Below are positions 1 to 23,649 of a stretch of 64,000 nucleotides of DNA, in pieces. A program made the position numbers and the translations under genes. Position 1 is the first letter of the stretch. Every line of letters begins with the position of its first letter. A model generated the notes under the pieces. That model worked only from the letters and a program-made list of their open reading frames with translations. It made no database searches and had not been told where the DNA came from. Source of the DNA: a virus; IMG/VR virus record IMGVR_UViG_3300031715_000002, positions 1 through 64,000 of that record. The stretch is one strand, 5' to 3'.

Positions 1-1015
1 TCATCTCTTCCTCGTCCTTGTCATCCTCATCCGGTTCGTCATCGGCTCCCGGCTTGTCGGGCTTGTCGCTGCCGCTCTTCTTGAGTTTCGCCGCCTTCTC
101 CGCCTTGGCCAGCAGAACCAGTTTCTCACTGGGGCCAGCTTTGGCGAAGGCTTGCTGGTCAGCGGCTGACATCGTCACCACCAGTTTTTCTTCATCGCGC
201 TTGTTGCAGGCTTCCTTCATCATGCCCTTGCGCTTCTCTTCGTCCGCAGCCATGTACGCTTTCTTCTGGTCGTCCGTCATCGCCCCGAAGGCTTTGCGCT
301 CCTTCTTGGACATCTTCAGCACTAATCCGCTGATGGCTTTGGACACTGTGTTTTCGGCCAGCAGGGCTTCAGTGGCGGCTTTGAGCGTGGCAATGGTGCC
401 CTCCAGTTCGATTTGATTTTTCTCGATAGCTTCGAGAGTTGGCATGGTATCTCCTTTGTCTGACTTCAGAATTGGGGGCAATTCGTCATCGCCCTTGTCG
501 GGATTCGCAGCGCGCCAAGCCGCCCGAACGCGCGACTTAACGGATGCCAGTTTGTCTGATGGAATTTGAACCTTGTTTCCTCGGAACCCTTTACCGAGGG
601 CGGCCACAGCAGCGCCAACGATCTTTGCGTCTGGCTTGCCTCCTGGGGATGAAGTAAGTCTGAGTTTCCATGTCGATGGCTTGGTTTTATCCGGGGTGAA
701 TGCCCAATCCGAGGCAGGAAAACAAGACCCACCCTGAGTTTGGCAGACACCATCCTTGCAAACTCCTTCAGCGCCACCGCCGCCAACTGCCTTGCATATC
801 AGGTCGTTATCGTCCCATGCGTCGTCTGCCTTGCAGAGAGCACGTAACTCCTGCTCGTTCACGTCGGCACCTCCTGAATCTTTTGAATGTCGTTTCCATA
901 TAGCCACAACCGCGCGTTGGATCTTGCGCTGAGTTTTAGGATCTACTTCACTGCAGGCTGGAGCGTCAACTAGCGAGACCTCGTTCACCGCAAGAGAGCT
1001 AAGTTCATTCGGCAT
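1..1015 (-). CDS. Capsid scaffold-like protein with XkdF-type N-terminus (partial, runs off left edge)
   Basis: An open frame starts at ATG 1015..1013 and continues to position 1, so at least 338 codons are present and the C-terminus is missing. The start has the ribosome site AAGGGGA and lies 2 nt after the stop of the preceding gene. The N-terminus reads NELSSLAVNEVSLVDAPA, the signature that normally follows an XkdF protease core. A middle part with FRGNKVQIPSDKL and KSRVRAAWRAANPD resembles DUF6582-like phage modules. After about residue 190 the protein is a Lys/Glu/Asp-rich predicted coiled coil with an acidic tail, as in scaffolding proteins. Its place just after the protease gene fits prohead assembly. 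Alternative: the second half of a split protease-scaffold polyprotein. Confidence 0.7.
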   Translation of the reverse strand, partial: MPNELSSLAVNEVSLVDAPACSEVDPKTQRKIQRAVVAIWKRHSKDSGGADVNEQELRALCKADDAWDDNDLICKAVGGGGAEGVCKDGVCQTQGGSCFPASDWAFTPDKTKPSTWKLRLTSSPGGKPDAKIVGAAVAALGKGFRGNKVQIPSDKLASVKSRVRAAWRAANPDKGDDELPPILKSDKGDTMPTLEAIEKNQIELEGTIATLKAATEALLAENTVSKAISGLVLKMSKKERKAFGAMTDDQKKAYMAADEEKRKGMMKEACNKRDEEKLVVTMSAADQQAFAKAGPSEKLVLLAKAEKAAKLKKSGSDKPDKPGADDEPDEDDKDEEEM

Positions 1016-2204: not shown

Positions 2205-5200
2205 TTACCCGGCGATTGCCGCGCGCTTGCCTTTGCCGCCAACGCTAAATGACCTCAATTCACCAGACGTAATGGATTGCCAGCAGGATTCGCTGGAAAT
2301 GCGAAAGCCAATCCACCAGCCACAGAATGGCATGAACATCGTGGCCGGGATGCCTTGGTCGTTGAGCGAGCGCGTCATCGCTTGCACTTTTTCGTCATCA
2401 AAGAAAACGCTCTCGACAAGTTCTCCTACTTGCTGCGGCTTGCCGTCGCCATCTGTCTCATGCATTTCTCCGGCGACGCGCGCATCCAAACAGTAAGAGT
2501 ATACAGCGGCCTCTAATGTTTTTGGGAGGATTACGTCTGCCTGAGTATCGACCACCGGCTTCCCATTTGCCGAGACAATCGAGGCCCACCCAAAAACAAG
2601 ATGCTGCGGCCTGTCGATCTTGATGATATTCCCGCTCAACTCAAATGCGCATTCCTCTTCTCGCTTGATGGTTGCGGTCTGCCCGCTCAGTGGAAATTCT
2701 TTCTTCTCGCCGCCAATCGACAGCGTGATTCTGTCGAACGTAACCGGGATATTCTCCGGCGTAGCCAGCAAGTGCGGCGCATGTGGCGCTAGGAACTTGA
2801 GCGTGATGTGTGGCGTGTAGCCGAAGTTCTCGCGCGGTTTGCCGCCGCCTTGCTTGATGGCATCCACGAGTTTCTGTCGGAATTGCTGAATGTCATCCGA
2901 ATGGAAACTGCGGTAGGCCACATCCTGCCCATCGGACTGTAGCGTTGCAGGGAATCGGCCGATGCCGCCGATGATGCCAGAGATCGGCGGTTCGTTGCTG
3001 GCGAACACGCGAATGGCATTCTCGATGACCGGCATGACGGTTGGGTCCGTCTCTTCTTGCTTGCCAAGATAGGCCAACGTTAGATGAATATCTTCCGGTG
3101 TCTCGCCACCCGGTACCGCTAGTGCTTTCTGCGTCTCCGCATCGGGCCAGAAGGCAATGAGCACACCATTGCCAGCCTTAGCGACTTCGTCGGGCCGTTT
3201 GCTGCGGTCGTCAATCAACTCGACCATGCCTGGGTCTTTCTCGTTCGTCACCGGCAGCACTTGTCCGATATGCGATTTACACCAGAACTCAATAGCGCGC
3301 TTAATTTTGCCGTCTGGGTCATCGGCCACGCGAGCGGTGAATATCTTGACTGCCTTGCCCTCTGCGAGTAGCCACTTGACGTAATCGACCATCTTGGGGA
3401 TGGGGTGCCCAATCCTGGTGCCATCGTAGGATTCAAGCGGAGCGGCGAGTGTACCATCGAGGTCCACAGAAATGCTCTGAGGCCATCGCCTTGCGTCTTC
3501 CTTCTTGACTATCTTCGCAGCCCACTTGCCGGCCGCTGTGCCGCCCCACGCGTCACGCGTTGAGGATGGCTCGGTAGCGCTGGCCCCATCTGCGAAGTGC
3601 TCCGCAATCTTACGTAGCGCCTCAACCGATAGCCCTCCGCCTTCTGCGAGCGGCGCAGTGATGTCGATGACAGCATTGCCTGAAGCATAAGCAGCGCGCG
3701 CCGCTTTTGCTATCTCTATAGGGGGCAGGTACTTCTTTACGTCAGGCTTGCCGGTCCAGGAGTCGCACACCTGATCGGCCTGTACGGGGTAGTGATCATA
3801 CATCTTGCAATTCCCCGCTGGATCGTAATAGCTACAGTTCGCGCACCGCTCCGTACCCGTAGTCTGGCGAAGATGTGGAGGGATTTGTGGTGCAGCCTTT
3901 TCGGTAGCCTGGAGTTCTTCATTTCCATCATCGGTATCGTCATCCGTCAGCGAGTGGAGAATCAGGTAGATGCCACCCTTGAACGGTTCGTCTTCTTCAA
4001 GGTCAATGTCTTTGATCTTGTCATCGTTCCAGCGTTTCATCGAAGCGTGGTCGCTGAAATCGTTCGGCGGGTCTTCGATATCCTTGGTATCCACATCGAA
4101 GTCGGCAGGGCAATCGTCATCGACCCAAGCATTGAGCAGAGCCTCAAAGCGTGAGTGATCCACCATGCCAATCTTTATGGTCGGGTCAGCCTGCCATCGC
4201 TCATACAGAGCCTTAGCCCATCCCAGTTGGCGCTTCTTGCTGGCGTTGAACGATTCGCCCGTTTGGCCGTCATTGCCTTTGCCTGGTGGCACTTCATCGG
4301 GATGCTTCACAAACCAGTTTATGAGATCTTGATTGTCGCCTCCCGATTTACCCTCAAATTCCCCGAGGTGCCATGGCTGAATTTCAGGGACTGGCTTGCC
4401 GCGGCGCATGGAGCGCGTAGCGTGGCGCGCAATGGCATCTGCCGTCTGAACAGAACGCCGTAGGGGGCTATTGTATAGGACATCTAGCCCCCCACGAGCG
4501 GCGATTCGTTGGCCTAATCGGTCGGCCAGCTTCTCGCCTTTGGCGTTTAGCGGGATGTTTGAGCTTCCTGAGATTCGTTTGGCGATGATTGCTTCGCCGC
4601 TGGCGTTACCTTGAGATCCTGACGGAACTCCCGCGCCATTCTTCTTCGCGCTCGCGCGATGTTTCTCTGCCTCTTCGTCATCTTCCTTTTCCGGTCTGTC
4701 GTCTGGACCTGCCGGCATTGGCAGGAAGTCAGCGCCGTTCTCTGGCGGGTCAACATCCTGCGTGCCTGGGTCGTCCTTATCCTCTGTCCGCTTCTTTTGA
4801 ATCGCCGCAATAATGGAGTCGTAATCGGACATGCCTAGTTCCGGCTTTTCCTCCATCAGTTCCACGAGCTTTTCAGTGAGCACATGGAGCGGTGCATCGG
4901 ACTTGATATCCTCGCGCGCCACTTCGAGCAACCGAAGGAATAGCGGCACATCCAGCGCTATCGTGTCGCCCTTGGCAGTAGGCACCAACAGTTGCCCCGC
5001 CTCTTTGGCCTTGCGCTTCTTTTCCTCTTCGTCTTCATCCTGTTCGTAACGCAATGCGCTGCCAATAGGCACGGGAGAGTGAACCATCCCAACAGTGGGT
5101 GATGCCTTTTGGACTTCCCACACGCCAAGGCCAGTCTCCACGTAGCCGGATTTCTCCAACTCCCGGTAGCCCTTGATGTAGGCGTGCATCTCAGAGCGGC

Positions 5201-5327
5201 CATCGGCTAACGCCTGATTCATCGCCATGCGAAAGATGGTCTGCGCATCCGCATCAGGCACGGCATCGCGAACCGATTCCGGAAGGTCCGAATTGCTGGA
5301 GAGGTGCATCACGCGGAGCGTTGCCAT
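2205..5327 (-). CDS. Multidomain fusion: ChaB - degenerate histidine phosphatase - HAD - 2H phosphoesterase - XkdF prohead protease
   Basis: 1040 aa. In order: a ChaB-like domain (about 14-62, LPESVRDAVPDADAQ); an acidic linker (about 90-245); a histidine-phosphatase-like domain (about 246-400) in which the usual RHG is replaced by AKRIS, although a later DHS is present (390-392); a Cys cluster CANCSYYDPAGNC with a further CDSW (about 495-524); a HAD-type domain with DLDGTL (622-627), FTAR (663-666) and DDRS (706-709); a 2H RNA-ligase-like domain with IHLTLAYL (747-754) and PHITLKFL (839-846); and a C-terminal XkdF/S78-type protease from about 905 (HLVFGWASIV). It lies downstream of portal and MuF genes, as expected for a prohead protease. 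The first ATG overlaps the upstream gene; ATG at 5309, in a TGATG coupling, is an alternative start. Confidence 0.8.
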   Translation of the reverse strand: MATLRVMHLSSNSDLPESVRDAVPDADAQTIFRMAMNQALADGRSEMHAYIKGYRELEKSGYVETGLGVWEVQKASPTVGMVHSPVPIGSALRYEQDEDEEEKKRKAKEAGQLLVPTAKGDTIALDVPLFLRLLEVAREDIKSDAPLHVLTEKLVELMEEKPELGMSDYDSIIAAIQKKRTEDKDDPGTQDVDPPENGADFLPMPAGPDDRPEKEDDEEAEKHRASAKKNGAGVPSGSQGNASGEAIIAKRISGSSNIPLNAKGEKLADRLGQRIAARGGLDVLYNSPLRRSVQTADAIARHATRSMRRGKPVPEIQPWHLGEFEGKSGGDNQDLINWFVKHPDEVPPGKGNDGQTGESFNASKKRQLGWAKALYERWQADPTIKIGMVDHSRFEALLNAWVDDDCPADFDVDTKDIEDPPNDFSDHASMKRWNDDKIKDIDLEEDEPFKGGIYLILHSLTDDDTDDGNEELQATEKAAPQIPPHLRQTTGTERCANCSYYDPAGNCKMYDHYPVQADQVCDSWTGKPDVKKYLPPIEIAKAARAAYASGNAVIDITAPLAEGGGLSVEALRKIAEHFADGASATEPSSTRDAWGGTAAGKWAAKIVKKEDARRWPQSISVDLDGTLAAPLESYDGTRIGHPIPKMVDYVKWLLAEGKAVKIFTARVADDPDGKIKRAIEFWCKSHIGQVLPVTNEKDPGMVELIDDRSKRPDEVAKAGNGVLIAFWPDAETQKALAVPGGETPEDIHLTLAYLGKQEETDPTVMPVIENAIRVFASNEPPISGIIGGIGRFPATLQSDGQDVAYRSFHSDDIQQFRQKLVDAIKQGGGKPRENFGYTPHITLKFLAPHAPHLLATPENIPVTFDRITLSIGGEKKEFPLSGQTATIKREEECAFELSGNIIKIDRPQHLVFGWASIVSANGKPVVDTQADVILPKTLEAAVYSYCLDARVAGEMHETDGDGKPQQVGELVESVFFDDEKVQAMTRSLNDQGIPATMFMPFCGWWIGFRISSESCWQSITSGELRSFSVGGKGKRAAIAG

Positions 5328-5497
5328 GTTATTTTGCGCGCCCTGATTTTGGCTGCGATATCATCGTCCGATTCACCTTGCTCCGCCATTTCTACGAGGC
5401 ACGCACATTCTTCTAACGTATCGTTCACGGCTCTGTCGATGGCGCACCGCACACTATCCACCATGCTTGCTGCGAATACTGCGCCTTGACTGGCCAT
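5309..5497 (-). CDS. Small acidic protein, unknown function
   Basis: 62 aa, predicted mostly helical, with a Cys pair (ECAC) and an acidic stretch (EQGESDDD). It starts 7 nt after the 30-aa membrane peptide gene and its stop overlaps an internal ATG of the protease-fusion gene as TGATG. The tight spacing supports a real coupled gene. No family recognised. Confidence 0.5.
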   Translation of the reverse strand: MASQGAVFAASMVDSVRCAIDRAVNDTLEECACLVEMAEQGESDDDIAAKIRARKITWQRSA

Positions 5498-5503
5498 TCG
5501 TGG

Positions 5504-5596
5504 TTATCGCTTTGGAGGCGGAGAGTTCCAGAACATCAGGAAAACCACTATCATGGTGGCGGCAACTAAGATGGCGACAACAAGAGCGGGAGGCAT
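5504..5596 (-). CDS. 30-aa single-span membrane peptide
   Basis: ATG at 5596..5594 directly follows the TGA of the previous gene. The product has a hydrophobic core of about 20 residues (ALVVAILVAATMIVVFLMFW) and a short basic Pro-rich tail (NSPPPKR). Such peptides in head operons may be holin-like or membrane-targeting, but only the membrane segment is evident. The contiguous arrangement with neighbours on both sides is the main support. Confidence 0.5.
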   Translation of the reverse strand: MPPALVVAILVAATMIVVFLMFWNSPPPKR

Positions 5597-5746
5597 TCAG
5601 TCGCTATCAATCACTGGAACTATTACCGTATCGCCCGGTTCGCCGTTGACTACAATCGTAACCGCCACGAACGATGTCGCGGGGACTTCCGTTTCCACGA
5701 GTTCAGTGAGGCAATCGAGCGCTATGGTGATTTGGTTTTGCATCAT
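5597..5746 (-). CDS. Small beta-rich protein, unknown function
   Basis: 49 aa from ATG 5746, which overlaps the MuF stop as ATGA and has AAGGG just upstream. The sequence alternates hydrophobic and polar residues (TSFVAVTIVVNGEPGDTV), suggesting a small beta fold. A start 33 nt earlier is possible but lies inside MuF. Possibly a head-associated or decoration peptide; unproven. Confidence 0.5.
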   Translation of the reverse strand: MMQNQITIALDCLTELVETEVPATSFVAVTIVVNGEPGDTVIVPVIDSD

Positions 5747-6729
5747 GCTGCCCTTGGAAAGATCAATCCGTATCCGCAACGGCAGAGGGTGTGATATGGA
5801 GCGTACATGTCGCCGGTAGAGAACGGCTGGTCAAGCGGTATTGGACCTTCGGCTTCGATTCCCAAGCAGACGGGACACGTGGCATCGTCCCCTGAAGCGA
5901 TACTTTGCTTCAATGTGCCTATCGGGATAACATTGTTTCGCTTGGCCTGTTGATGCAGGGCAAATTGCCCAGTGTTAGCCGATCTTACTGTTTCGGTCCT
6001 CGCGATTGATTCAGCCCTGTACTTGAGATATCGATCATAGTAGCGCTGCACTTGCTGGTCAATCTGTTCCTGCGTCAGCGCTGTATCATTCCGCACCGCA
6101 GCCATCACCGTCCGGTCGAAGCGTTTATCGCGCAATTCCCGCTCTAGCGCATCGGCCATAGTATCCGGTGAAGAGAGCGCGCGGCGGTAATTCTCAACCG
6201 CTTGCTGCTGGCGCTGCGTCAAGCCGATGGAATCGCGGATTAATCGCGCCTGTTCGTAGGGATGCCCACCTTGCTCGAATGCATTCGTAATCACTTGACG
6301 GATGTTCTCTTTGGTGTCATCCGTGATCTGCTTAATGAGGTTGAACTGGTAGGATTGCAGGAACTTGACCGACTCCGGGTTCGTGATATCGAACGCCCAC
6401 CCGATGCCAATCTTTGCTGGAAGCGCCTCCTTCGCGGCCACGGCGCCCGCTGCAAAGGTTTCCCTGATGGCTGATTTGAACGACTGGATGCCGGTTTGCG
6501 TCTGCCCATTAAGCGCCGCAACAAAGTGCTGATCTACGGCCACAGCGGCAAGCGCTCCGTTGGCATCGCCGGTTGCAATGGCGTGCTCCAGTTCCGTAAG
6601 GGAGACTCTCTTTTTCAGGTAGGCCACGGCGGCAAGAAACGCATCCCGCAGCTTCGGCTCCATGCGCGAAGCCGCTTGCAAGATTGGATCTGTCTCGACT
6701 TGGGATTTACGGACGAAAGTTACGGGCAT
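5743..6729 (-). CDS. MuF-like minor head protein (head morphogenesis)
   Basis: 328 aa. The C-terminal third carries the MuF signature: ARTETVRSANTGQ (about 243-255), a CPVC pair (285-288) and PYHTLCRC (311-318), in which the spaced cysteines and histidine probably bind metal. The N-terminal two thirds are helical. MuF proteins sit inside the capsid at the portal vertex and are needed for head assembly and DNA injection in Mu and SPP1 (gp7). It begins 5 nt after the portal stop, the canonical order. No toxin domain is fused to it here. Confidence 0.9.
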   Translation of the reverse strand: MPVTFVRKSQVETDPILQAASRMEPKLRDAFLAAVAYLKKRVSLTELEHAIATGDANGALAAVAVDQHFVAALNGQTQTGIQSFKSAIRETFAAGAVAAKEALPAKIGIGWAFDITNPESVKFLQSYQFNLIKQITDDTKENIRQVITNAFEQGGHPYEQARLIRDSIGLTQRQQQAVENYRRALSSPDTMADALERELRDKRFDRTVMAAVRNDTALTQEQIDQQVQRYYDRYLKYRAESIARTETVRSANTGQFALHQQAKRNNVIPIGTLKQSIASGDDATCPVCLGIEAEGPIPLDQPFSTGDMYAPYHTLCRCGYGLIFPRAA

Positions 6730-6734
6730 GGATT

Positions 6735-8237
6735 CTACGCCACTTCCTGCAACCGCTCTGCTGCCTGTTCATCCGTCTCGCCTTGCACTGGAGCCGTCTT
6801 TCCCGCTGGCCTCTGAGGCGATTTAGGCCCTGTTGGCGGCTGGCCCTTACCTGAGGGCACGCCAGTCTGTTCAGGAGGCTCCTGAGCCACGGGAGACGGC
6901 GCGGCGGGGGCTTCCTTGGGTTCTTCTGGCAGCCTCGCAACCTTGCGCAAGTAGTTTGCCGTATCCGGGTCGAAGAACGACAGCCCAGACTGCGAGAGGC
7001 GCTGAATGTACGCCGAAAGCTCATCGAGGTCGCGTACCCCGATTTCGCCGGGTACCAGTTTCGGCGCAAGCGTTAGATCCATCTTGTTCAGCGCCATCAG
7101 GCGAGGGATGGCAATGCGGTTCATGACATCGGCCACCGAATCCATGAAGGCCCCGAGGGCAAGCGCAAAGATTTGAGTTGCGCTCATGTGGAGCGACCGG
7201 CTACCCGTGGGAGTCTGGCCAAACTGGATGAAGCCAGCCATCGCCGTATTGAGAATGTCTTGGTTATACCGATTGATGGTAGCTCCGGGGTCTGTCATCT
7301 TGCGGCCGGCGGCCTTGAGCAATTCCAGTTTGACCATGGGATTGCCCTTCTCGTCATAGGCGAGCGGCAAGAGAGCTCCCATCTGATCATCTACGCGAAT
7401 GTTAGTAATCATCTGCTTGGCGGCATCGACTCCGCCCATCGCGTTGATAACTTCCTGATTCGCGTAAAGTACCGGCAACCCGCACATGTCGCGCTCAATC
7501 CCGATGCCTTCCACTTCCTCGATCCTACGCTTGAAAAACCAGGGTCGGTAACAGTTGCGAAGGACCGAGCGACCCTCTGGATTATTCTTTATTGAAGTGG
7601 TGCGGAATAGCAGTAACTTTTCAATCGGAATCGGCACTGTGCGATAGTCCGGAGCTGCTAATTGGACTGCGCCCTGTAAGCCGCCCTCATCGTCCCATAT
7701 CCAGTACAGAATTGTTTCTTGGGCGCGCGGCGCGAGTTTGCGCCATCCGATAAGCCCGTCATCATACTTGCTGGCCTTACGGCCATCAGGACCGAGACGC
7801 CGCTTATAGACGGTTTCAAAGAGTCCATAGCCAAATGCAAACATGTTCACGCATTCTGCGATGAAGTCCGTCCACGTGTGGCTCATGTCGTTCATGTTGG
7901 ACTCTACGAATTCACCGTAATCGTCGCCCTTCGCTCCCTTCGATGGTTCAACACGCCATTCCGCCTTTCTGAGGATCATTTCCATCGCGTAGAACAGCGC
8001 CCCGATAATCGGATCATTGTCGCGCATTTCCCGGTAAACCAGTTTGGCTTGATATGTTGATAGGGAGCTCAGCCACTCTTCAAAAACATATCCGAGCAAC
8101 TTTGTTCTGGCGAGGCCAGATACGCCGATCTCCATCATCGGGTTTGGCTTTGGTAGGGTAACTCCAGCGCCAGGGATCGCTATAACCTCTCGCCGCGATG
8201 GTGTTATAGCCTTACGGATTGTCTCAAAGAATGACAT
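6735..8237 (-). CDS. Portal protein (DUF935 / Mu gp29-like)
   Basis: 500 aa. The N-terminal half has the portal-type stretch VYREMRDNDPIIGALFYAME, then AEWRVEP and FGYGLFETVYKRR, matching DUF935-type portals. The C-terminal 80 residues are Pro/Gln/Glu-rich and probably disordered (EEPKEAPAAPSPVAQEP). Portals form the dodecameric ring through which DNA is packaged. The following MuF gene supports the call. Unusually, the terminase genes are about 24 kb upstream rather than adjacent. Confidence 0.92.
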   Translation of the reverse strand: MSFFETIRKAITPSRREVIAIPGAGVTLPKPNPMMEIGVSGLARTKLLGYVFEEWLSSLSTYQAKLVYREMRDNDPIIGALFYAMEMILRKAEWRVEPSKGAKGDDYGEFVESNMNDMSHTWTDFIAECVNMFAFGYGLFETVYKRRLGPDGRKASKYDDGLIGWRKLAPRAQETILYWIWDDEGGLQGAVQLAAPDYRTVPIPIEKLLLFRTTSIKNNPEGRSVLRNCYRPWFFKRRIEEVEGIGIERDMCGLPVLYANQEVINAMGGVDAAKQMITNIRVDDQMGALLPLAYDEKGNPMVKLELLKAAGRKMTDPGATINRYNQDILNTAMAGFIQFGQTPTGSRSLHMSATQIFALALGAFMDSVADVMNRIAIPRLMALNKMDLTLAPKLVPGEIGVRDLDELSAYIQRLSQSGLSFFDPDTANYLRKVARLPEEPKEAPAAPSPVAQEPPEQTGVPSGKGQPPTGPKSPQRPAGKTAPVQGETDEQAAERLQEVA

Positions 8238-8285
8238 TGTTATAACTTGTGCGCGTCTACTTATTCAGTTTCTTCAGACGTGCCG

Positions 8286-8663
8286 TCATGCTTTCGGTTC
8301 GCCAGAAGTGGTTTCCGCGTGAGTCTCTGCGATGGTCGTTACCACTGTTGCTGGCGGATTCAGCGACTGCTGAGCCATCTGAACGGTAGTCGTTACGATC
8401 TTCATGTCTGGTATCGGCTTGGTGCGCAGAAAGTTTAGCATACTCAGCGTGCCGCTGATGGTGAACACGGCCAGCAATTCGATGAAAAACTTGGAGGTTC
8501 CGACAGCCAAATCCTTAGTCAACGTGGAGCCTACGAACGCCGCGCTAGCGCCAGTAGCTCCGCCGCTAACAAATGCGGAAACGAGTCCGCGTAGCCAGTC
8601 GGTGAAATCGAGGTTGCCAAAGCCTGCCGGAAGTGTCAGTTTCATGGGGGAATTGAGGAGCAT
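8286..8663 (-). CDS. Holin-like membrane protein
   Basis: 125 aa. Two hydrophobic segments are visible: about residues 26-48 (DWLRGLVSAFVSGGATGASA) and about 59-83 (FIELLAVFTISGTLSMLNFL), followed by a polar Thr/Ala-rich tail. The pattern NLDFTDWLRGLVSAF is common in phage membrane proteins beside tail or lysis genes. An internal ATG at residue 7 is an alternative start. A holin role is inferred from topology and from its place before the portal. Confidence 0.55.
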   Translation of the reverse strand: MLLNSPMKLTLPAGFGNLDFTDWLRGLVSAFVSGGATGASAAFVGSTLTKDLAVGTSKFFIELLAVFTISGTLSMLNFLRTKPIPDMKIVTTTVQMAQQSLNPPATVVTTIAETHAETTSGEPKA

Positions 8664-8699
8664 GGGCGAAGTCTGGGTGACTCCGCCCCGTGAGCACGG

Positions 8700-9317
8700 T
8701 TACGGTTCCGTCTCTACCATCTGCACGCCCGCGATACCGCCCGCTATCACGTCAATCGGCTCGCCGGTAGCCGTCAGGTTGATCGTTGGCAGCGTGGGAT
8801 CGGTAATCGTGACAGCAGCGGTAATCACGATGCCTGTGGCCAGTTGTGGCGGCGTGGATGGTGCGAAGGCAGCCACAAGCGGATTGATGGTGCTCGGCGT
8901 GACGACAACCGCAGGGCTGCTGGATGTCCACGTGGTCGCCACAGTTGAGGTCGTTGGTACCACTGCCGGAAGCCCGGCGGCGTCCACGAAGGAAAGGGTT
9001 GCGGTGCCGCTCCCGGAATCCGGGAGTTGCAGGTCGAGAGTTGTTGCCAGTGTGGTTTTGGCCATATTGATTTCTCCGTTAAGCGTCAAGGTAAGAATTG
9101 CGGCTGCGGGTGGTGGCGGGGTTAGTTGGACGATGATCTTTTCTGTGTTGGCGAGAACCTGATTCAAAGTCGCAAGAGCCTGCGATAAAAGCGTTAGGCT
9201 CTGAGCCAATTCGGCATTGGCGGTATGCTGCGATTGAGCTAAAGCCGCCTGCCCAGACAGCAGGGAGTTGAGCTTGTTGATTATCAGATCGACCATCCCC
9301 GCCAGCCACCCTAGCAT
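8700..9317 (-). CDS. Coiled-coil plus Ig-like (BIG2-type) structural protein
   Basis: 205 aa. Residues 10-65 form an amphipathic helical coiled coil, then comes a run of Pro and Ala, then about 130 residues of Thr/Ser/Val-rich beta sequence typical of bacterial Ig-like domains (WTSSSPAVVVTPSTINP is BIG2-like). Ig-like folds decorate phage tails and capsids and bind carbohydrates weakly. It lies in a run of small structural-type genes. Confidence 0.55.
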   Translation of the reverse strand: MLGWLAGMVDLIINKLNSLLSGQAALAQSQHTANAELAQSLTLLSQALATLNQVLANTEKIIVQLTPPPPAAAILTLTLNGEINMAKTTLATTLDLQLPDSGSGTATLSFVDAAGLPAVVPTTSTVATTWTSSSPAVVVTPSTINPLVAAFAPSTPPQLATGIVITAAVTITDPTLPTINLTATGEPIDVIAGGIAGVQMVETEP

Positions 9318-15281: not shown

Positions 15282-17918
15282 TTAGTAAAGCCTCACAAAT
15301 GCGGTAACCGTCGATACGCTTGATGCCGTGGTTTTGACTACACCGACCCCCTCTCCTGTCGTACAACTCACTGATCCATTATCGTGAGCCAATCCGGCTG
15401 TTGATGACGCGCAAAGAATGTCTCCAAATGTGACATTCTGTGTTGCATCAATCACCACACTAGTTTCCCCGGTGGCTACCCACGTGGAGGAAGAGTTGAA
15501 TATCCCAAGAATGTTGTTTGATGGAGTCCCGACACAATTACCAATGGTATTCGAGGCGGTGTAACAAGCCAGATGGCCGCTGGTGATTGTACCTGCCGTG
15601 TCTGTAAATGTCGGGACCTCCGAGCATGATGCCCCAAGTGTACAAACTGTGCCATTTACCGTCACGGAAGAATTTGACAGTTTGGCATTGGCAATGCTTC
15701 CGGCCAGCATGGTGCTAGTAACCGATCCTGTATCTGTAGTGCTCACTATGTTAGCCGCAACCTTTCCAGAATCCGTTAAGGTACAGGTGGTGCTGGAAGT
15801 AGTGCATGAAAGAAGATCCCCTGTAGCAGGAACCGAGGTAGGCCCTAACATAGTGTTGCTGGTTGTGCTCGGAGATGCCCCGACAGTGAAGGTGCCTGAG
15901 CCGGTAGCGTTGCCGAATGCCCACGTGCCAGTGCTGGTACCAGGGACGCCCAATGTAGGAGTGATTGATTCTAAAGGAACACCAGATGAATTAGCTATCA
16001 CGGCCGCACCATTTACCGGCGTCACAAACGTGGTCCCCCCAGTTCCGCCTTGGATCACAATGTCATTTGCCGCGCCGCCGGCGATGTTCGTTGCTGTAGC
16101 GGCCGTTGTTGCGCTGCCAACGTTCAGTGAAGACTGAGCGGTTGATGTAGCCACGTTTGCCACGCCTACCCAGACATTTCCTGTGCTAAGAAATGTGGTC
16201 TCAACTTGCGATCCGTTAACCTGCACCGTGCCGCTTCCCTTACTTTGCAGATTAAGGCTGATGTTGCTGTCGGACCCGGTAGCTCCTAAACCGACCACCG
16301 CCGGATTGGCTGTTGCCGCATTGGTCACAGTCAGAGAATCGACAGCGCTTGCCGTTGCCGAGGACGTCATGAATGGATTTCCGTTGCCGTCGTCAATGGT
16401 CGTGACGTGTGGAGTGGTCAGTACTGGAGATGTGACTAGTGCGAAGTTACCGGACCCGCTTGTGTTGCCGGTAGCATCGGATGGAGTTACCGCGCTGCTG
16501 GTCACTGTCTGCGTAGATCCAGCGAAATGTGCCACGCCCGCGCCAGGACTGGAGGCTACTACTAAATTCGCCGCGACTACGCCGCTGTCCGTCGCCGTGT
16601 GGTTTCCATTGGCCGAAATGACATGACCCGATGTGTAGTTGCTTGAATTTGTGGTGACATTGGCAGCCACTACGCCGCTGTCCACCAGCAGGCCGCCGCC
16701 TGTCCCGCTAAAGCTTGCCAGATCACCGCTGGTATCCGATGCTGGCCCCTGCGTGAGCGGCAGATAGCTTCCGTTGTTCCAACTGCACAGCATCCCGTGC
16801 TGCGTTGAATCGGCATAACAGATATCTACGCCAGAGGCCGCGCCCACACTTGGAACCGTGCCCTCGCCATAGGCATCCACTCCGCCTGTCCCTGCTGTTA
16901 CGGATGGCGGGCTAGTCCCGGTAGATACACTGGCCGCCGTAAATGCCTCAGTTGTGCTAACGGTTGTCCCATTATCCACCACGCTGGAGTCAATGATTGA
17001 GTTAGCGCCGTTTGCCTTTGAGAGATGATTTGTGGTGAGACTCGTGCTGGTCGTGTTACCCGTCCCGCTCGGTGCCGCACAAGCCCCATCACCTCTGAGG
17101 AAGGTGCTACTGGAGCAAGAGCCTGTCCACAGGCCGTACACATCCGAGGATGCCGCATTGCTCAATGCTCCCGTGGTAGTGGTGTTTTTGACGATTCCCG
17201 TGCCCAAGGTGGCCCAATTTTGGTTTGAGGTACCCAACGTTAGGGTAGCCGTGTTCGCCACGCCCGTGCCCCCGTGCGCCGCCGCAATCGTGGTCCCATT
17301 CCACGTACCGGTCATGGTGGAACCAAGCAAAGCCAGCGACCCTCCGCCGCTTGGGAAGGTCCAAGTAGAGGTTGACGGGATGGCAAACGTGGGATTAAAC
17401 GCGCCGGTAAAGAGCAGATTTCCTGCAAGAGTTATGGTATTCGATCCGTTGTTGACGCCGGTACCACCGTAAGTTGCGCCCACCAAGCCGGAATTGATCT
17501 CAGTACCAGAGATGCTTTTGTTTGTCAAAGTCTGAACATCTGTGGTTCCTACCACAGCACCAGCAGGAGCCGCTACGGTAGCAACCGTGCATACGCCAGT
17601 GGTAGTAGAGCAAGTCAGCAACCCGCTGCTGAGCGCGCCAAGGTTGATGGCGTTGGCTGGTTCACTGGTCGATTGGTTGACGAGATAGAACCCGTTCGGA
17701 TTAGCGCCACCACCGCCAGTGCCACACACAGAGCCTGTCCCGCTCGGTACACCGGAATTGTTGACCTGCACGCATTGCGTCCCACCACCAGTGATCGGGA
17801 GCTTTAGCGTACCAAGTCCGCTCAGGTCAAGGCTCCCAGTGGCCGCCGCGTTATAGTTGGCGGATTGACCATAAGCAATCGTAGTTAGAAGTAAAGTAAG
17901 TAGGATTTTTCGCATCAT
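15282..17918 (-). CDS. Secreted tail-fibre-like protein
   Basis: 878 aa with a signal peptide (MMRKILLTLLLTTIAYGQS). The mature sequence is dominated by phage fibre repeats, for example TTDVQTLTNKSISGTEINSG, GATYGGTGVNNG and HGGTGVANTATLTLGT, plus several DSGVVAAN repeats at about residues 410-455 and a DSGKVAANIV unit near 700. These motifs are common in fibre shafts. A fibre carrying a Sec leader is unusual. The protein lies in a continuous operon with other leader-bearing proteins. Confidence 0.7.
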   Translation of the reverse strand: MMRKILLTLLLTTIAYGQSANYNAAATGSLDLSGLGTLKLPITGGGTQCVQVNNSGVPSGTGSVCGTGGGGANPNGFYLVNQSTSEPANAINLGALSSGLLTCSTTTGVCTVATVAAPAGAVVGTTDVQTLTNKSISGTEINSGLVGATYGGTGVNNGSNTITLAGNLLFTGAFNPTFAIPSTSTWTFPSGGGSLALLGSTMTGTWNGTTIAAAHGGTGVANTATLTLGTSNQNWATLGTGIVKNTTTTGALSNAASSDVYGLWTGSCSSSTFLRGDGACAAPSGTGNTTSTSLTTNHLSKANGANSIIDSSVVDNGTTVSTTEAFTAASVSTGTSPPSVTAGTGGVDAYGEGTVPSVGAASGVDICYADSTQHGMLCSWNNGSYLPLTQGPASDTSGDLASFSGTGGGLLVDSGVVAANVTTNSSNYTSGHVISANGNHTATDSGVVAANLVVASSPGAGVAHFAGSTQTVTSSAVTPSDATGNTSGSGNFALVTSPVLTTPHVTTIDDGNGNPFMTSSATASAVDSLTVTNAATANPAVVGLGATGSDSNISLNLQSKGSGTVQVNGSQVETTFLSTGNVWVGVANVATSTAQSSLNVGSATTAATATNIAGGAANDIVIQGGTGGTTFVTPVNGAAVIANSSGVPLESITPTLGVPGTSTGTWAFGNATGSGTFTVGASPSTTSNTMLGPTSVPATGDLLSCTTSSTTCTLTDSGKVAANIVSTTDTGSVTSTMLAGSIANAKLSNSSVTVNGTVCTLGASCSEVPTFTDTAGTITSGHLACYTASNTIGNCVGTPSNNILGIFNSSSTWVATGETSVVIDATQNVTFGDILCASSTAGLAHDNGSVSCTTGEGVGVVKTTASSVSTVTAFVRLY

Positions 17919-17947
17919 GGCACCATCGTTAACCGCGATTCCCTACG

Positions 17948-20900
17948 TCATTGGATGCGTGCTACCTGAAGGCCTTGAGGCATCCACGTGCCACCGATGA
18001 GCAATTCCACCTGATAGTACAGGAAGTGACGGGAAAGCGCTGGAACCTGGATTGTGCAGGATACCGGGCAGAAAAGCCCTGTGGCCGATTCGCTACCCCA
18101 ACTGAATATCTGGGGGCTGGCCGGAATGGTCGCTGTGACCGCTTGGCATTTGTCGAGCCTCGTCATGCAATGGTAATCGGTAGGAGCGCTTCCATTCTCG
18201 AAGTATCCGAAGTCCACGCGCGCCGCCGTGCTTCCTCCGCTGGCCGTGATGTTGATTGTATAGGGAACCGGATTCCATCGCTGTACGGCATCCGGAGTCG
18301 GAAAGGAGGGAAGCCTGGAGGCGCACACGGCGTTCCAAACTCCGTTCACAGCGATACACCACGTCAAATACCAGCTTCCGTCAGGAGTGACGCGCCCGTT
18401 GGCGTTGACGTTTAGAAAGCGCTGCCGCGTCAGGAAATGTCCCAGGCCACGGGCGTACTGCGCGTTAGGATCGGTCCCATTGGCCCAAGAGTATTGCGAA
18501 GGGGCATTGAGCCATGCGCCAGTATTGAAGAAGCCGACATCGTTTTGGGAGAACAACCCGATTCCGCCGAGTGGCAAAGGAACCAGATTGGGGCATGTAA
18601 AGACGATATCTCCCTGAGTGCGACCGCCGCCGCATTCCGTGGTAGTGCGCGCTTCACAGTATTGGTATGTTCCAGGTAGCCCGCTTGCTGGCCCTGAGAT
18701 GTCAGTCAGCGGCTGGGTTCCGCAAAAAGCCATGGTCGGTTGAACCTTTCGGTTCAGACTGTTGGCGATTCCAGATCCGCCAATGCCGTTGAAATCGTCG
18801 CCGTTGCTTGTAGTTCCAGCATAGTAGTAGGTGTTGCCGGAAATGTGAATAGCGGTGCCGGTCTTACTAGTCGGAGAGTTGACGGTGTCCATCGTTTCTC
18901 CGGTCCTAAAGTCCACCATATAATTCGCGCTGGTCTGGCTATCGCCGTATCCGCTAGTATGGTCCTGGGCGGCTTCAACGAACTGCGGAATTCCTTTGAT
19001 TCCTCCGAATAAAGGAGCTAGCGATAGGTAATAGGTCGGGGAAGAAGCCGTTAAACTCGTTAGAGCGGCATAGCCACCGGTCGGTGGTTCTCCTGGATTC
19101 GCACTCCATCCGTCCGCTCCCACGACATAGGATGGCCGTGGCGTCGGATGGTCGATATAATAGGCCGTCGCCACCTGGCCGCCTCCATTCAGGCCGTGAG
19201 GGTCTGTCGTATAATTCCAGGTCCATGACTCACTTCCATGGGGAACGGCGGCCGAGCACTGCATGTAAAGTGTGATCGTGCCAGATGGGCAAGCGCTTCC
19301 GCCGGAAGATGTGCAAAGCCCGCTATCGCTTACGCCGCGGCTGACAGAGATTGTCGGAGTGCTACCACCGCTCGTGCTCAACACCTGAACGTTCTCGCCA
19401 GAACCGCCGCCCTGGAAGCTGATCACATCGCCCACTGCGATGTTCTGAATGAAGCCATCCGAGCCGTTTGGTTGAGCCGCCAGCGTTAGAGTATTGCACC
19501 CATGGGGCACTCCGCCAGGGCAACCTCCTGTCCCTGGTGCGAACTGCGGGCTAGTGCCGATGGTTCCGCTCGAAACCGTGCTCGTCTGGAAACTCTGTCC
19601 CGCGCTTCCGCCGTTCGTCAGAGTCTTCCCGGCGATCCACATCGTACTGGTGTTGGCTTGGCCAGCAGAAAACAGGGTGTGAAGCGTACACCAACGGTTT
19701 GGCGAGGTGGAGGAACCGCCCCCCCAAGTACTCATAGCTGCCATGACGCATCCGGGACCGCCGCCGAGAGCGCTCACACACCCGGCGTTGCCTGCTTGTC
19801 CGTTAGTCGTGGCAACTGGGTCGAAGGAGTATACCCATCCGTAGGTGTCTTGCTGAGACTGGACACAATCGCCAATCAGTAGTGGATCTCCATTACTCCA
19901 CTGCTGCAAACCGCTGATGCCGCATCCCTGCGTTGAGAAGGTCGTTTTATTGAAACTCGGGGTTTGCCCAGTCGTAAAATTAACCAGCAGGCTCAATAAG
20001 TCAGCATTGATCGAACTTGGAGTAAGGTTCGTACCGCTGTTCCAATTCCAGGAGCCTGGCTGAAGAGTGGAACTTGGAGGAAAGGTGATAAGAACCTCTG
20101 TTCCGGTGTTATCTAGGCCGGTGCAGTAGATCTTGAAAGGACCGCTGCCGGTGATAGTGGTGGATGCGTTATTACATGCCTGCCCGCTTCCATTGCCCCA
20201 ACCGTCAGTTCCAGCCTTGCTCGGATAGTTTATAGTTGATAGGGCGTTTCCCTGACCAGTAACGGTATCGAAGAAATAGAAACCTGTTCCAGGCACCTGC
20301 ATGAGATATCCGGCATGCCCGGTAGTAGAGTTAGTTAGTTGCGTTAGGTCAAAGAGATCCGGAGAACCGCTGGCCGGCCACTGAACGGGCAGGCTGCTTG
20401 TTATGGAATATGTGGCGTACTGGATCTTGATCGTGTTCACCGTGTCCGTGGTCCAGATCAGCCAGCCGAAATTGGTGGCCGAGTAGGGCGCGCTGGAAAC
20501 CGGAACCGTGAGGGCAGGGCTACAGGCGCTAGGAGTGATCGTAAACGCCGTGATCGTGACAGCGCTCGTGATTATGCAAACCGAAGACCCAATAGTCACG
20601 ATACTTCCGGGGGACCAGTTTAGATTGAAATTCGTGATTGAATTCTGAGTCGGTATCACGAGTGAAACGTTTCCGCTTCCATCCACATTCACGTTGCCCG
20701 AGCGCTGCTGCATGTCGCCGTACAGAGACTGTTGTTGGCCTAGAAGAGGAGAAGAACCGGCGGGCGTCCAGGAATCTAGGATAGGAGTCGTTGTACCCAG
20801 AGTGACGGTCGAAAGAGATCCAGTGAGATTGGCGGTCTGGGTCTTCGTTGTGCCGTTAGTTGGCCAGCAGTTCGCATTATTGACGGTCGGGCACGCGATG

Positions 20901-21766
20901 ATAGGCGACGACGAGCCGGTGGTCAAGCCGGTGATGCTCAGGACCGCCGAGTCGATAGTATAGAAGTTCCCGCTGTTATCGAAGAGAACCGTATCGATCA
21001 CCGCCAACTTTCCGGAGCCAGCACCTGAAAACGTGGCATATACCCCAGGCGAGTTGAGCAGGATGTTGCCGGGGTTGGTCCACCCGCTCACGCTCGTAGC
21101 CGTTGTGAAGCTGTGCGTACCGCTAAAACCTCCGGTGAAGGGAAAGTCCTGTGGATAAGTAACAAGCTGAACGCCAATACCACTCTGTGTATCGGGAAGA
21201 ACTTCCGGATTGGCCCCCCGAACCATTGAAAGAAACTGCGGATAGGCGTACTGACCGCCAGGAACGTAATAAGCCGTGCTCAAGCTCAGGTCGGGCGGGA
21301 CATCCTCGTTGAAGGTATTTCCCAGGAGAATATTATCCGTCGTAAAAGAACCGGTGGCCGTTCCTCCGCACCCGCTAATCTGGTAATACACGGTTGTTAG
21401 CGGCTTTAGAGAACGAGAGTGGAAATAGCCGTCCAGCGCCCGCTCTGCGGCGCGCTTTCCCAGGATGAAGATTCGAGACGTGCCGTTGTTTACGGACCCG
21501 GTTCGGTTGTCCTGATTGCTCCCGCTATATAGACTCGGGTCCACATCCGCAAGCAGCGGTGATAGAGTTGGCGATTCGCTAGCCGCCACAGTACAGGTGG
21601 TATTCGCAGGAGCCGTGAAGGTGAGTTGGGCCTGCTGGGTGAGCGGCGAGACCGTTACGCTGAAACCACTGCCGGCCGCCGTAGTTCCACTTAGCATCGA
21701 CGGCGCGATCTGAGCCGAGCAGCTGAGCGCCACGAAAAATAGAGAAAATCTCAGTTGTACACCCAT
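17948..21766 (-). CDS. Very large secreted protein, unknown function
   Basis: 1272 aa from ATG 21766, chosen because the signal peptide MGVQLRFSLFFVALSCSAQ starts there; the frame itself opens 40 codons earlier inside the upstream gene. The first 130 mature residues look fibronectin-III-like (AQLTFTAPANTTCTVAASES, ending in YYQISGCGG). The rest is Thr/Ser/Asn/Trp-rich beta sequence with scattered Cys, and the C-terminus ends in a second Ig/FnIII-like part (VPYTINITASGGSTAARVDF). It overlaps the upstream gene by 16 nt. It is the largest product in the window. Confidence 0.65.
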   Translation of the reverse strand: MGVQLRFSLFFVALSCSAQIAPSMLSGTTAAGSGFSVTVSPLTQQAQLTFTAPANTTCTVAASESPTLSPLLADVDPSLYSGSNQDNRTGSVNNGTSRIFILGKRAAERALDGYFHSRSLKPLTTVYYQISGCGGTATGSFTTDNILLGNTFNEDVPPDLSLSTAYYVPGGQYAYPQFLSMVRGANPEVLPDTQSGIGVQLVTYPQDFPFTGGFSGTHSFTTATSVSGWTNPGNILLNSPGVYATFSGAGSGKLAVIDTVLFDNSGNFYTIDSAVLSITGLTTGSSSPIIACPTVNNANCWPTNGTTKTQTANLTGSLSTVTLGTTTPILDSWTPAGSSPLLGQQQSLYGDMQQRSGNVNVDGSGNVSLVIPTQNSITNFNLNWSPGSIVTIGSSVCIITSAVTITAFTITPSACSPALTVPVSSAPYSATNFGWLIWTTDTVNTIKIQYATYSITSSLPVQWPASGSPDLFDLTQLTNSTTGHAGYLMQVPGTGFYFFDTVTGQGNALSTINYPSKAGTDGWGNGSGQACNNASTTITGSGPFKIYCTGLDNTGTEVLITFPPSSTLQPGSWNWNSGTNLTPSSINADLLSLLVNFTTGQTPSFNKTTFSTQGCGISGLQQWSNGDPLLIGDCVQSQQDTYGWVYSFDPVATTNGQAGNAGCVSALGGGPGCVMAAMSTWGGGSSTSPNRWCTLHTLFSAGQANTSTMWIAGKTLTNGGSAGQSFQTSTVSSGTIGTSPQFAPGTGGCPGGVPHGCNTLTLAAQPNGSDGFIQNIAVGDVISFQGGGSGENVQVLSTSGGSTPTISVSRGVSDSGLCTSSGGSACPSGTITLYMQCSAAVPHGSESWTWNYTTDPHGLNGGGQVATAYYIDHPTPRPSYVVGADGWSANPGEPPTGGYAALTSLTASSPTYYLSLAPLFGGIKGIPQFVEAAQDHTSGYGDSQTSANYMVDFRTGETMDTVNSPTSKTGTAIHISGNTYYYAGTTSNGDDFNGIGGSGIANSLNRKVQPTMAFCGTQPLTDISGPASGLPGTYQYCEARTTTECGGGRTQGDIVFTCPNLVPLPLGGIGLFSQNDVGFFNTGAWLNAPSQYSWANGTDPNAQYARGLGHFLTRQRFLNVNANGRVTPDGSWYLTWCIAVNGVWNAVCASRLPSFPTPDAVQRWNPVPYTINITASGGSTAARVDFGYFENGSAPTDYHCMTRLDKCQAVTATIPASPQIFSWGSESATGLFCPVSCTIQVPALSRHFLYYQVELLIGGTWMPQGLQVARIQ

Positions 21767-23649
21767 GAGCCACCCAGACAACGTACCGGGGCATGAACAC
21801 TCCCGGTTGTGCTTGGAGCAGCCAGGTAAGCCGGGCTGCTGGCGTTGGTCACCAGTCCGACCATGCGCTCCAGAACCGAACTGCAAGCTGGTAGGCCGCT
21901 GATCGTAGTGGGTGGGTTGTAAAAGTTCTCAATCCCGGCTATGGAAGTGACGTGCGAGAGGCCGGCAGAGGAAAGAGGAACGGAAATCTTCCCGTTTACA
22001 TTGACGGGAGCAGTGATGGCCATGCTGCTTACACTGCCCTGGGCGTCTACCAAATAGGGAGTGGCCGAAAATGACCCATTGTCGCTTACCCACCCATCGA
22101 CCTGAAGATTGGTTACCGGATTGATGGTCTGAAGCAAGAAAGCCCCGCTGGAACCGGCCGCGCTGGTATTCCTGTATAGCCCCACGTTCTTCACGATCAA
22201 GTTGCTTATCGTATTCTGAACGTTGACGCACGATGGTGCCAGGGGATTTGATGTAAGTTCGTTGGTGCAGTCGCTGTTCACCACGCTAATCGTGTTCCAT
22301 GAACCAACTGACTGGTATACGGGAGCTTGGACGGAGTGGGCATCGGAGACAAAGATTGGTCCGTTTGAATCGGCAGCCGTCAAGCCATTCCCGCTGGCCA
22401 TGTATACCAGGGCCTGCGTGACAACTGACCCCGCATCAACAGTGACTCCGTTGATTCTGATGTTCGTCAAAGGAAAAGCGCACGAGCCAGCACTGTTATA
22501 GCCCGCGACGGCAGAGAAGACATTCCCGACCTCTTCAGACTCAATATTCACATTGTCGATGGGGCCACAGTGACCCTCGGGGGCATTCAGCGCGATATCG
22601 GTGTCTGTGGTGGATGCCGTAGTGCCGGCCATGCCGCAGTAGTTTCTTGAGAAAAAAACGTCCTTCTCTGGACCATCCATATGGCGGCAATCTCGCCCTG
22701 ATCCACTTGGAACTGATATCCACGTCCCCGCCGTGTGAACGTTGATGTCTCGGTCGTAGAGAATACCGTATGATGGCGTGTTGAATATCCGGACGTTATC
22801 GATCCATAGGCCGTCTGTGTTGGCAATGTGGATGCCCGTGCAGTTCGCAGTGCCGTTGGAACAGCCATTGCCGGCCGCGATATTCGGCGCGTTCATGTTT
22901 ATGGAAAGATCCCGAATAACGATGTTCGACCCAGTAGCTCCTGGCGTAACCGTCGTGCTAATGGTCGCCGTTCCGCTGCAAGTGGCTGTTCCGTTGCTCG
23001 CCACAACAGTGGTGGGCGCTGACGTGAAGTTTCCGGGGAACGTGATCGTGAGCGCCGTACCGCCAGCAATCGTATTTGTGCCGGTCAGGGCTACAGTGGC
23101 TGTGGCTGGTATCCACCCAGGAGACACGTTGTTGAACGAGGTGAGCGTGCACGTCTGCGTGACGCTCCCGGTCGCCGTGATGCCGCTCGTATAAGTTCCC
23201 GACGCCAATCCTCCAGGTGGAGCCGCGTTGTTCAGATTGTTGGCGTATCCATTGGTGATCGCGCTGTCGGTTGCGCCTGCCTCCATGAAGATCCCGGCTC
23301 CTGGCGTTATGCCCTGAATGGCGCAAAATCCTCCGGTTGGGCATTGAATATGAGCGCTTAAGGCGATGCCTTGATCCAAGAGAATTACTACCGGGTTGGT
23401 CGCGCTGGCCCCAGACCAAGCCGCATTTATCAGGCCAGCATTTGCGCTCCCAGGATCTGAGCACGAGGGGTTCAGGACGTAAGGGCTAATCGTGCAGCCG
23501 CCCGTAACTCCTAGCTGAGAAGACAGGAAAGTTTTCGCGGTTGTGGAGACTTTTCCTTTGAATACAGTGTCCACGTTTACGCTAGTCTGCGGAGCAGACT
23601 GCATAGCGATTGCGAGGAACGCGATAACTAAGGCCGATTTAGTCTTCAT
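21751..23649 (-). CDS. Secreted pectate-lyase-like beta-helix protein
   Basis: 632 aa with a signal peptide (MKTKSALVIAFLAIAMQSA). The central part has beta-helix rungs: IVIRDLSINMNAPN, GIHIANTDGLWIDNVRIFN, GPIDNVNIESEEVGNVF, TNIRINGVTVDAGS. The overall plan is a pectate lyase-like superfamily fold as used in phage tailspikes. Catalytic residues cannot be assigned. A C-terminal part with CSSVLERMVGLVTNASSPAY could be a trimerisation or attachment domain. Confidence 0.65.
   Translation of the reverse strand: MKTKSALVIAFLAIAMQSAPQTSVNVDTVFKGKVSTTAKTFLSSQLGVTGGCTISPYVLNPSCSDPGSANAGLINAAWSGASATNPVVILLDQGIALSAHIQCPTGGFCAIQGITPGAGIFMEAGATDSAITNGYANNLNNAAPPGGLASGTYTSGITATGSVTQTCTLTSFNNVSPGWIPATATVALTGTNTIAGGTALTITFPGNFTSAPTTVVASNGTATCSGTATISTTVTPGATGSNIVIRDLSINMNAPNIAAGNGCSNGTANCTGIHIANTDGLWIDNVRIFNTPSYGILYDRDINVHTAGTWISVPSGSGRDCRHMDGPEKDVFFSRNYCGMAGTTASTTDTDIALNAPEGHCGPIDNVNIESEEVGNVFSAVAGYNSAGSCAFPLTNIRINGVTVDAGSVVTQALVYMASGNGLTAADSNGPIFVSDAHSVQAPVYQSVGSWNTISVVNSDCTNELTSNPLAPSCVNVQNTISNLIVKNVGLYRNTSAAGSSGAFLLQTINPVTNLQVDGWVSDNGSFSATPYLVDAQGSVSSMAITAPVNVNGKISVPLSSAGLSHVTSIAGIENFYNPPTTISGLPACSSVLERMVGLVTNASSPAYLAAPSTTGSVHAPVRCLGGSWVYN

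Follow-up and report, generated by a model that had tools for sequence, protein, structure and literature searches.

A 1040-residue viral fusion protein with accessory domains ahead of XkdF: a candidate head-cargo protein

Why should the head-maturation peptidase gene of a phage carry a string of further domains in front of the peptidase? This question is raised by a 1040-amino-acid (aa) fusion protein encoded at positions 2205 to 5327 of the window, a 64,000-nucleotide stretch of uncultivated-phage DNA whose position 1 is the first base of the 96,199-base IMG/VR virus record IMGVR_UViG_3300031715_000002. An earlier note, made from the letters alone, had read this protein as ChaB, histidine-phosphatase-like (HP), HAD and 2H phosphoesterase domains joined to an XkdF protease in one chain. 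The single chain is borne out, since one uninterrupted open reading frame (ORF) runs on the minus strand from an ATG at 5327 to a stop codon at 2205-2207, and within the head operon it takes the slot of XkdF. The answer favoured here, with confidence about evenly poised, is that an enlarged gene for the XkdF head-maturation peptidase has turned into one for a polyvalent head-cargo protein, docked by mimicry of the capsid N-terminal arm.

Domain architecture and module shuffling

An AlphaFold model of the full chain, built with 13 related sequences, contains folded blocks at aa 11-72, 123-182, 255-460, 535-612, 616-707 and 720-880; its joints at 74-123, 183-251, 466-481, 708-718 and 884-893 have low confidence. 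The ChaB, HP, HAD and 2H regions named in the earlier note are indeed folded blocks, mostly with predicted local distance difference test (pLDDT) values of 75-93, and XkdF is weakly modelled. The chain and its parts are as follows.

2205..5327, minus strand: 1040-aa fusion protein, with contiguous relatives in contigs L003, L004, L013 and L015
5112..5297, minus strand: ChaB-like N-terminal domain, aa 11-72 (Pfam 0.006; pLDDT about 80-88)
4752..4961, minus strand: helical module, aa 123-182, then the conserved linker DDPGTQDV, aa 185-192 (alignments, model)
3903..4589, minus strand: histidine-phosphatase-like domain, aa 247-475, putatively circularly permuted (Pfam, model, Foldseek)
3762..3860, minus strand: Cys4 cluster C495-x2-C498-x8-C507-x13-C521, also in L002 (sequence and alignment)
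3492..3740, minus strand: helical module, aa 530-612, conserved and present in all accessory chains (alignment, model)
3195..3485, minus strand: HAD-like domain, aa 615-711 (phrog_1238 4e-8, 616-716)
2688..3179, minus strand: 2H phosphoesterase domain, aa 717-880 (Pfam 2_5_RNA_ligase2 1.9e-10; LigT_PEase 4.2e-7, 746-866)
2220..2651, minus strand: XkdF / Peptidase_S78_2 domain, aa 893-1036 (Pfam 1.8e-13, 900-1034)

Profiles and Foldseek uphold XkdF, 2H, HAD and the HP fold of the earlier domain list. The XkdF profile scores 51.1 bits against a curated cut-off of 24, H956 (in GEMHE) and S1028 (in SFSVGG) are retained, and G-x-MHE and S-[IV]-GG are preserved across the aligned XkdF-bearing members; proteolysis of head proteins is the predicted activity. 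For some jumbo phages, XkdF has been proposed to stand in for the ordinary prohead peptidase (PMC7824862). The HAD segment retains its motifs (D622xD624GT, T664 and D706D707) and is 42-54% identical to HAD proteins of cultured phages. The assignment of ChaB is weak in the fusion itself (17.6 bits against a Pfam curated cut-off of 27) and firm in relatives, with 1.2e-5 (26.2 bits) in L004 and 2.6e-13 (50.8 bits) in L043, a 221-aa protein with ChaB, a capsid-like motif and XkdF in one chain; because these two match at or near the cut-off, the domain appears real at the level of the family. That list had credited the HP domain with no peculiarity, and the domain lacks its N-terminal RHG strand. 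It had also overlooked the Cys4 cluster (aa 495-521), whose sole Pfam hint is HIPIP-like (0.042), the helical modules 123-182 and 530-612, the segment 76-89, the putative HP permutation and the shuffling of modules in relatives.

Both H-x-[ST] motifs of the 2H domain are kept (H748LT and H840IT). Foldseek on the full-chain model gave E. coli LigT (5ldm, 1.5e-7) and Deinococcus CPDase among the matches, followed at lower ranks by human Usb1 and the rotavirus VP3 2',5'-phosphodiesterase (4ye2, 1.6e-4). Sequence and model thus suggest a LigT-like fold with a predicted 2',3'-cyclic phosphodiesterase activity. In the earlier note the 2H domain had been considered an anti-defence cargo, delivered to degrade host cyclic or 2',5'-linked nucleotide signals. 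A role of this kind has been proposed in a survey of polyvalent proteins, some of which end in an assemblin-like head peptidase and some of which carry a 2H domain suggested to act on RNA or defence nucleotides (Iyer et al., 2017, PMC5512222), and it would agree with the VP3 match and with weak, sub-threshold Acb1 matches in L004 (0.025) and L035 (0.00058). The top fold matches, however, are LigT-type RNA 2',3'-cyclic phosphodiesterases, and the fusion itself has neither an Acb1 match in Pfam nor a PADLOC match; an attack on defence signals is judged unlikely.

Searches of viral contigs returned relatives in L002-L006, L013-L017 and L035, L014 being almost identical to L003, and in them the domains recur both fused and as separate genes. 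Because relatives at 45-52% identity share the module order in unrelated contigs, chance is excluded as its source. Misassembly, which the earlier note had kept in view, is likewise ruled out with near certainty, because several independent contigs repeat this order and ten or more contain relatives that share its modules. L002 (truncated), L003 and L004 have ChaB, HP, HAD and 2H in the complete order. L005 and L006 contain HP, HAD and 2H without ChaB and encode XkdF apart, and HAD is absent from L013 and L015 as well as from L016, L017 and L035, where the modules are split over two or three genes. Four relatives (L005, L006, L016 and L017) encode the accessory chain, wholly or in part, apart from XkdF. 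Other modules appear too, namely an ADP-ribosyltransferase in L015 (Pfam 1.1e-5), probably another in the YHGTS stretch of L006, a PI3/4-kinase-like module in L017 (7.9e-11) and a Zeta-toxin-like module in L035 (6.1e-18). In addition, a D...ExK module without Pfam match looks nuclease-like; in L003 and L015 it is encoded by genes lying upstream of the fusion, and it also occurs in L005, L006, L016, L017 and L035. The accessory modules therefore vary among relatives and the frame is constant, which counts for the cargo reading.

Several distinct enzyme domains in one chain, variable among relatives, place the fusion with the polyvalent proteins. The likeness to those of that survey (PMC5512222) extends to a multi-domain chain in a portal/terminase-type phage, to 2H and other enzymes, to a C-terminal head peptidase and to the shuffling of modules. 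The fusion differs in its peptidase, XkdF, for which no relationship to prohead peptidases of the SH superfamily is reported (PMC7824862), and in its putatively permuted HP domain and capsid-arm-like motif, neither of which was met in the parts of the survey consulted. Another parallel is offered by the 2H-XkdF fusions of Arthrobacter phages (Shrooms gp18 and Ottawa gp87; PHROG 14859), in which 2H precedes XkdF in one chain within a head operon having a related capsid protein; these differ in being just about 373-380 aa long, lacking ChaB, HP and HAD, and being annotated as RNA ligase or aldolase. In cultured relatives (KPP23, RDJL Phi 1, Mulvp2 and Carvaje) this slot ahead of the scaffold and capsid genes holds a lean XkdF of about 130-245 aa. 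Their sequences suggest an accretion series, from lean XkdF through the Arthrobacter 2H-XkdF proteins and the ChaB-motif-XkdF protein of L043. Within the literature searched, none linking XkdF with ChaB or a scaffold was found.

Alternatively, the accessory domains might serve assembly or the producing cell, for instance in late RNA or nucleotide processing, and be trimmed by XkdF and left undelivered. Prohead proteases commonly strip scaffolding domains, and the four relatives with a wholly or partly separate accessory chain would fit such a role. Against it, the ADP-ribosyltransferase, Zeta-toxin-like and nuclease-like modules in comparable positions resemble effectors, and the capsid-arm motif described below travels with the accessory modules. 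Undelivered helper domains are accordingly judged unlikely.

The earlier note had also supposed self-cleavage and pointed to conserved cleavage sites between the domains; none could be assigned, and in the four relatives just mentioned the accessory chain, or part of it, already comes from a gene of its own. A junction linker, K-[YF]-x-x-[DNE]QPRDxxG[RE][FW], occurs in 15 copies at distinct loci, with 0 expected in shuffled proteins; in the form K-Y-x-x-DQPRDxxGRFG it stands at many effector-like module junctions of L005, L006, L015, L016, L017 and L035, and a recombination or processing signal is possible. This phage's 96-kb genome contains no copy of the DQPRDxxGRF linker. Besides the linker, several observations concern the organization of these loci. 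At 4494-5420 of L005, a GIY-YIG-like ORF stands between the genes for the accessory chain and XkdF and might bear on the split. The MuF gene of L006 (2953-4836) is seemingly broken by an intein-like insertion (HPSCLLGSTPATAKDIVG ... ANGIITHNC). L035 encodes, at 467-2987 and 5200-8076 on the minus strand, a MuF protein with more effector-like domains, and there the Zeta-toxin-like module adjoins 2H; this contig abounds in modules that resemble cargo.

The capsid-arm-like segment and proposed head cargo

Between the ChaB-like domain and the first helical module lies a short stretch that resembles the start of the phage's own capsid protein.

5061..5102, minus strand: capsid-N-arm-like segment SPTVGMVHSPVPIG, aa 76-89 (disordered in the model; leave-one-out position-specific scoring matrix)

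The matrix for this 14-aa segment was built from relatives, the fusion itself being left out, and 86,486 six-frame windows of the genome were scored. SPTVGMVHSPVPIG reached 32.0 bits and the capsid N-terminus of the same phage 31.4, and the third-best window in the genome scored 14.0. The capsid N-terminus was also the other top match in L003, L004, L005, L006, L016 and L017. When 2.9 million viral contigs were scanned at the DNA level for VHVNRPLG, 24 came back, comprising 14 capsid N-termini, 7 contigs of protease, cargo or scaffold type (L013, L027, L033, L035, L041, L043 and L047) and 3 chance frames. The L033 protein (7984-9051) is scaffold-like, lies beside its capsid protein and has the VHVNRPLG segment near its N-terminus. 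In KPP23, RDJL Phi 1, Mulvp2 and Tedan the capsid protein bears the motif (23.5-30 bits), but it is absent from the lean XkdF of those cultured phages and from the KPP23 and RDJL Phi 1 scaffolds. When XkdF has a gene of its own, the accessory chain keeps the motif. Co-variation of the capsid and cargo motifs is suggestive (permutation P = 0.035 for 8 pairs, uncorrected for relatedness). A related capsid protein was found in 141 phage records; the only solved relative of this phage's capsid protein was 3bjq, in a match that omits the N-terminus.

The segment shared with the capsid protein might also be a site that XkdF recognizes or cleaves in the capsid N-terminus, in itself and in the cargo, the ChaB part being removed as a propeptide. 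The motif is short, common to capsid, protease/cargo and L033 scaffold-like proteins, and situated in a disordered stretch right after the N-terminal domain, and T4 gp21 with its L/I-x-E site provides a precedent (PMC9026906). Nevertheless, the motif is missing from the scaffolds of KPP23 and RDJL Phi 1, which XkdF would be expected to cut. With some 12 conserved residues it is longer than the T4 gp21 site, it lies just about 3-16 residues from the capsid N-terminus, and it is kept on accessory chains separate from XkdF. The capsid protein of KPP23 has been N-terminally sequenced, with the result unprinted (PMC4031330). A docking signal is therefore favoured over a cleavage site, though not strongly, because the lean XkdF proteins and scaffolds read lack the motif and separate accessory chains keep it; the cleavage site is regarded as somewhat unlikely.

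From what was computed for this locus, that is, its architecture and conservation, module shuffling, operon position, folds, intact 2H, HAD and XkdF motifs and capsid-arm motif, we infer docking, enclosure, trimming, ejection and all substrates. Modules would have been added as a string in front of a lean XkdF gene. Late in infection the chain would join the assembling prohead via its XkdF part and N-terminal region, the disordered 14-aa segment imitating the capsid N-terminal arm and docking on the shell or its assembly partner, and the accessory domains would thereby be enclosed. XkdF would mature the head and may trim the chain. After ejection, the enclosed 2H, HAD and permuted phosphatase-like domains would act in the next host, with RNA ends or phosphorylated nucleotides as the likeliest targets. 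Release as separate enzymes, as the earlier note had put it, fits 2H and HAD and probably not HP, in which catalytic residues are replaced. Capsid delivery, its other proposal, has gained indirect support from the XkdF slot, the effector-like shuffling, the capsid-arm segment and the detection in virions of S0112_068, an unfused XkdF-like protein of the related phage S0112 (PMC6893657).

Several points weigh against this cargo reading. S0112_068 matches XkdF weakly (Pfam 0.032), although by eye it resembles the XkdF-like protein of Tedan. AlphaFold confidence is low for the XkdF domain of the fusion. In cultured phages the lean XkdF has no capsid-like motif, so the motif is dispensable for XkdF packaging. 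Finally, module swapping would also fit domains active in the producing cell.

Known head-loading systems offer partial parallels. In T4, a capsid targeting sequence of 10 residues suffices, and the cargo includes the anti-restriction protein IPI and the ADP-ribosyltransferase Alt (PMC9026906). There too a short N-terminal peptide, of a type that the head protease removes, brings cargo into the head alongside that protease; the differences are that T4 cargo is encoded apart from gp21 and that the T4 peptide binds the core, whereas the segment of the fusion resembles the capsid protein. In YSD1, an auxiliary protein augments the sheet formed by N-arm and E-loop (PMC7385642). Group-wide, a 14-aa copy of the arm might replace a subunit in the inter-subunit sheet or on an assembly partner, with interchangeable effectors behind it being enclosed and delivered, one of them of permuted HP fold; this wider proposal is tentative. 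The general cargo idea has already been published for polyvalent proteins, and within the literature searched the putative permutation of the phosphatase domain and the copy of the capsid arm look new. If the segment is a loading signal, it would provide a sequence tag for finding head-delivered effectors across the large siphophage group sharing this capsid arm. If the reading is true, head cargo becomes directly testable in these phages, with a loading route unlike that of T4.

The histidine-phosphatase-like domain

The His_Phos_1 match of the fusion (Pfam 8e-16, aa 248-393) begins only at profile position 14. In all members except one it starts at profile position 9-15, past the RHG strand; the exception, L017, begins at position 2 via EYLKREGQLEE, without the RHG His. 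The RHG motif on the first strand is thus absent N-terminally from the HP domain of every member. The fold is supported by a domain-only model (pLDDT 79.5, predicted template-modelling score 0.80; Foldseek 6e-7 to 6nru) and by Foldseek on the full chain, which places it among CobC, TIGAR and PGM. The candidate for the missing strand lies at the other end of the domain.

3945..3974, minus strand: displaced RHG-equivalent strand GIYLILHSLT with H458 (9-mer match; strand 452-457 in the models)

Some 67 residues beyond the second His motif, every member has a strand [IV]Y[LP]ILH[SG]LT, with the His invariant. In ungapped comparison with the RHG strands from three E. coli proteins (CobC, YtjC and GpmA), it was the top-scoring 9-mer of the full sequence in 7 of 8 members and ranked second in L004; VYLILHGLT of L013 and L015 scored 24.7, and the next 9-mer 12-13. 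The HP model lacks an N-terminal strand and has one confident additional strand C-terminally (aa 452-457). In L026 a sister HP domain of canonical order matches from profile position 1, with VYLFHHAVAT at its N-terminus. From sequence and model, we infer that the domain is circularly permuted, with the RHG-type strand at its C-terminus.

It might instead be unpermuted, having merely lost its first beta strand, with an unrelated strand at the C-terminus. In agreement with this, Pfam scans of native and rotated domains gave no gain in the rotated order, nor did family hidden Markov models in both orders with shuffled-strand controls, in which joining the strand in front added nothing; profiles alone fail to prove permutation. 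Foldseek against viral models retrieved just ordinary histidine phosphatases (template-modelling score 0.4-0.5), a result that fits either view. Because the profile tests gave no gain, permutation is argued from the strand match, the order of elements in the model and the canonical sister. On the other hand, the C-terminal strand is the best match to the canonical xYLVRHGET in 7 of 8 members, H458 is invariant, and the missing N-terminal strand, the confident extra C-terminal one and the L026 sister all argue against simple loss, which is considered very unlikely. Within the literature searched, none on circular permutation of histidine phosphatases was found. If true, the permutation would mean that a well-studied superfamily has one more rearrangement.

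With HP branch 1 (CobC, PhoE and TIGAR) the domain has the fold, the SxLxR motif and the second His in common, and it differs in its apparently C-terminal RHG-type strand and in two of the five classical catalytic residues, which are substituted in all members. Leu stands in place of the Arg of RHG, and Pro318 in place of the acid Glu (motif LRE-x-x-x-G; LREIHLGDWEG in PhoE). Since both are replaced in all members, classical phosphatase chemistry is unlikely, and the domain is probably not an ordinary phosphatase. The L026 locus (3194-8545, from an archaeal assembly) encodes a portal, a Cys-rich protein, the unfused canonical-order HP and then an S78 prohead protease; the same accessory set there surrounds an unrelated protease. 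Its HP has the shared HPDEVPPG motif. A segment of the S78 protease is ChaB-like by eye, and Pfam gives just S78 and DUF6582.

Neighbouring genes

On the minus strand the local order is portal, MuF, the fusion, three small genes, a scaffold-like gene and then, across the contig end, the capsid protein.

6735..8237, minus strand: Mu-type portal protein (Pfam 1.7e-28)
5743..6729, minus strand: MuF head morphogenesis protein, upstream neighbour of the fusion (phrog_3517 4.9e-67)
2..1015, minus strand: scaffold-like gene, cut by the contig start, presumably continuing at record position 96199
record 93986-95026, minus strand: major capsid protein, presumably next after the scaffold-like gene, at the other record end

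The three small genes 3' of the fusion have no meaningful family match in Pfam or PHROGs. Further away, two big ORFs of 878 and 1312 aa (15282-21886, minus strand) have zero PHROG matches at 0.001. At 53608-54798 on the minus strand lies a gene for a phosphoadenosine phosphosulfate reductase family protein (phrog_12882, 4.8e-161), a gene of host-takeover type.

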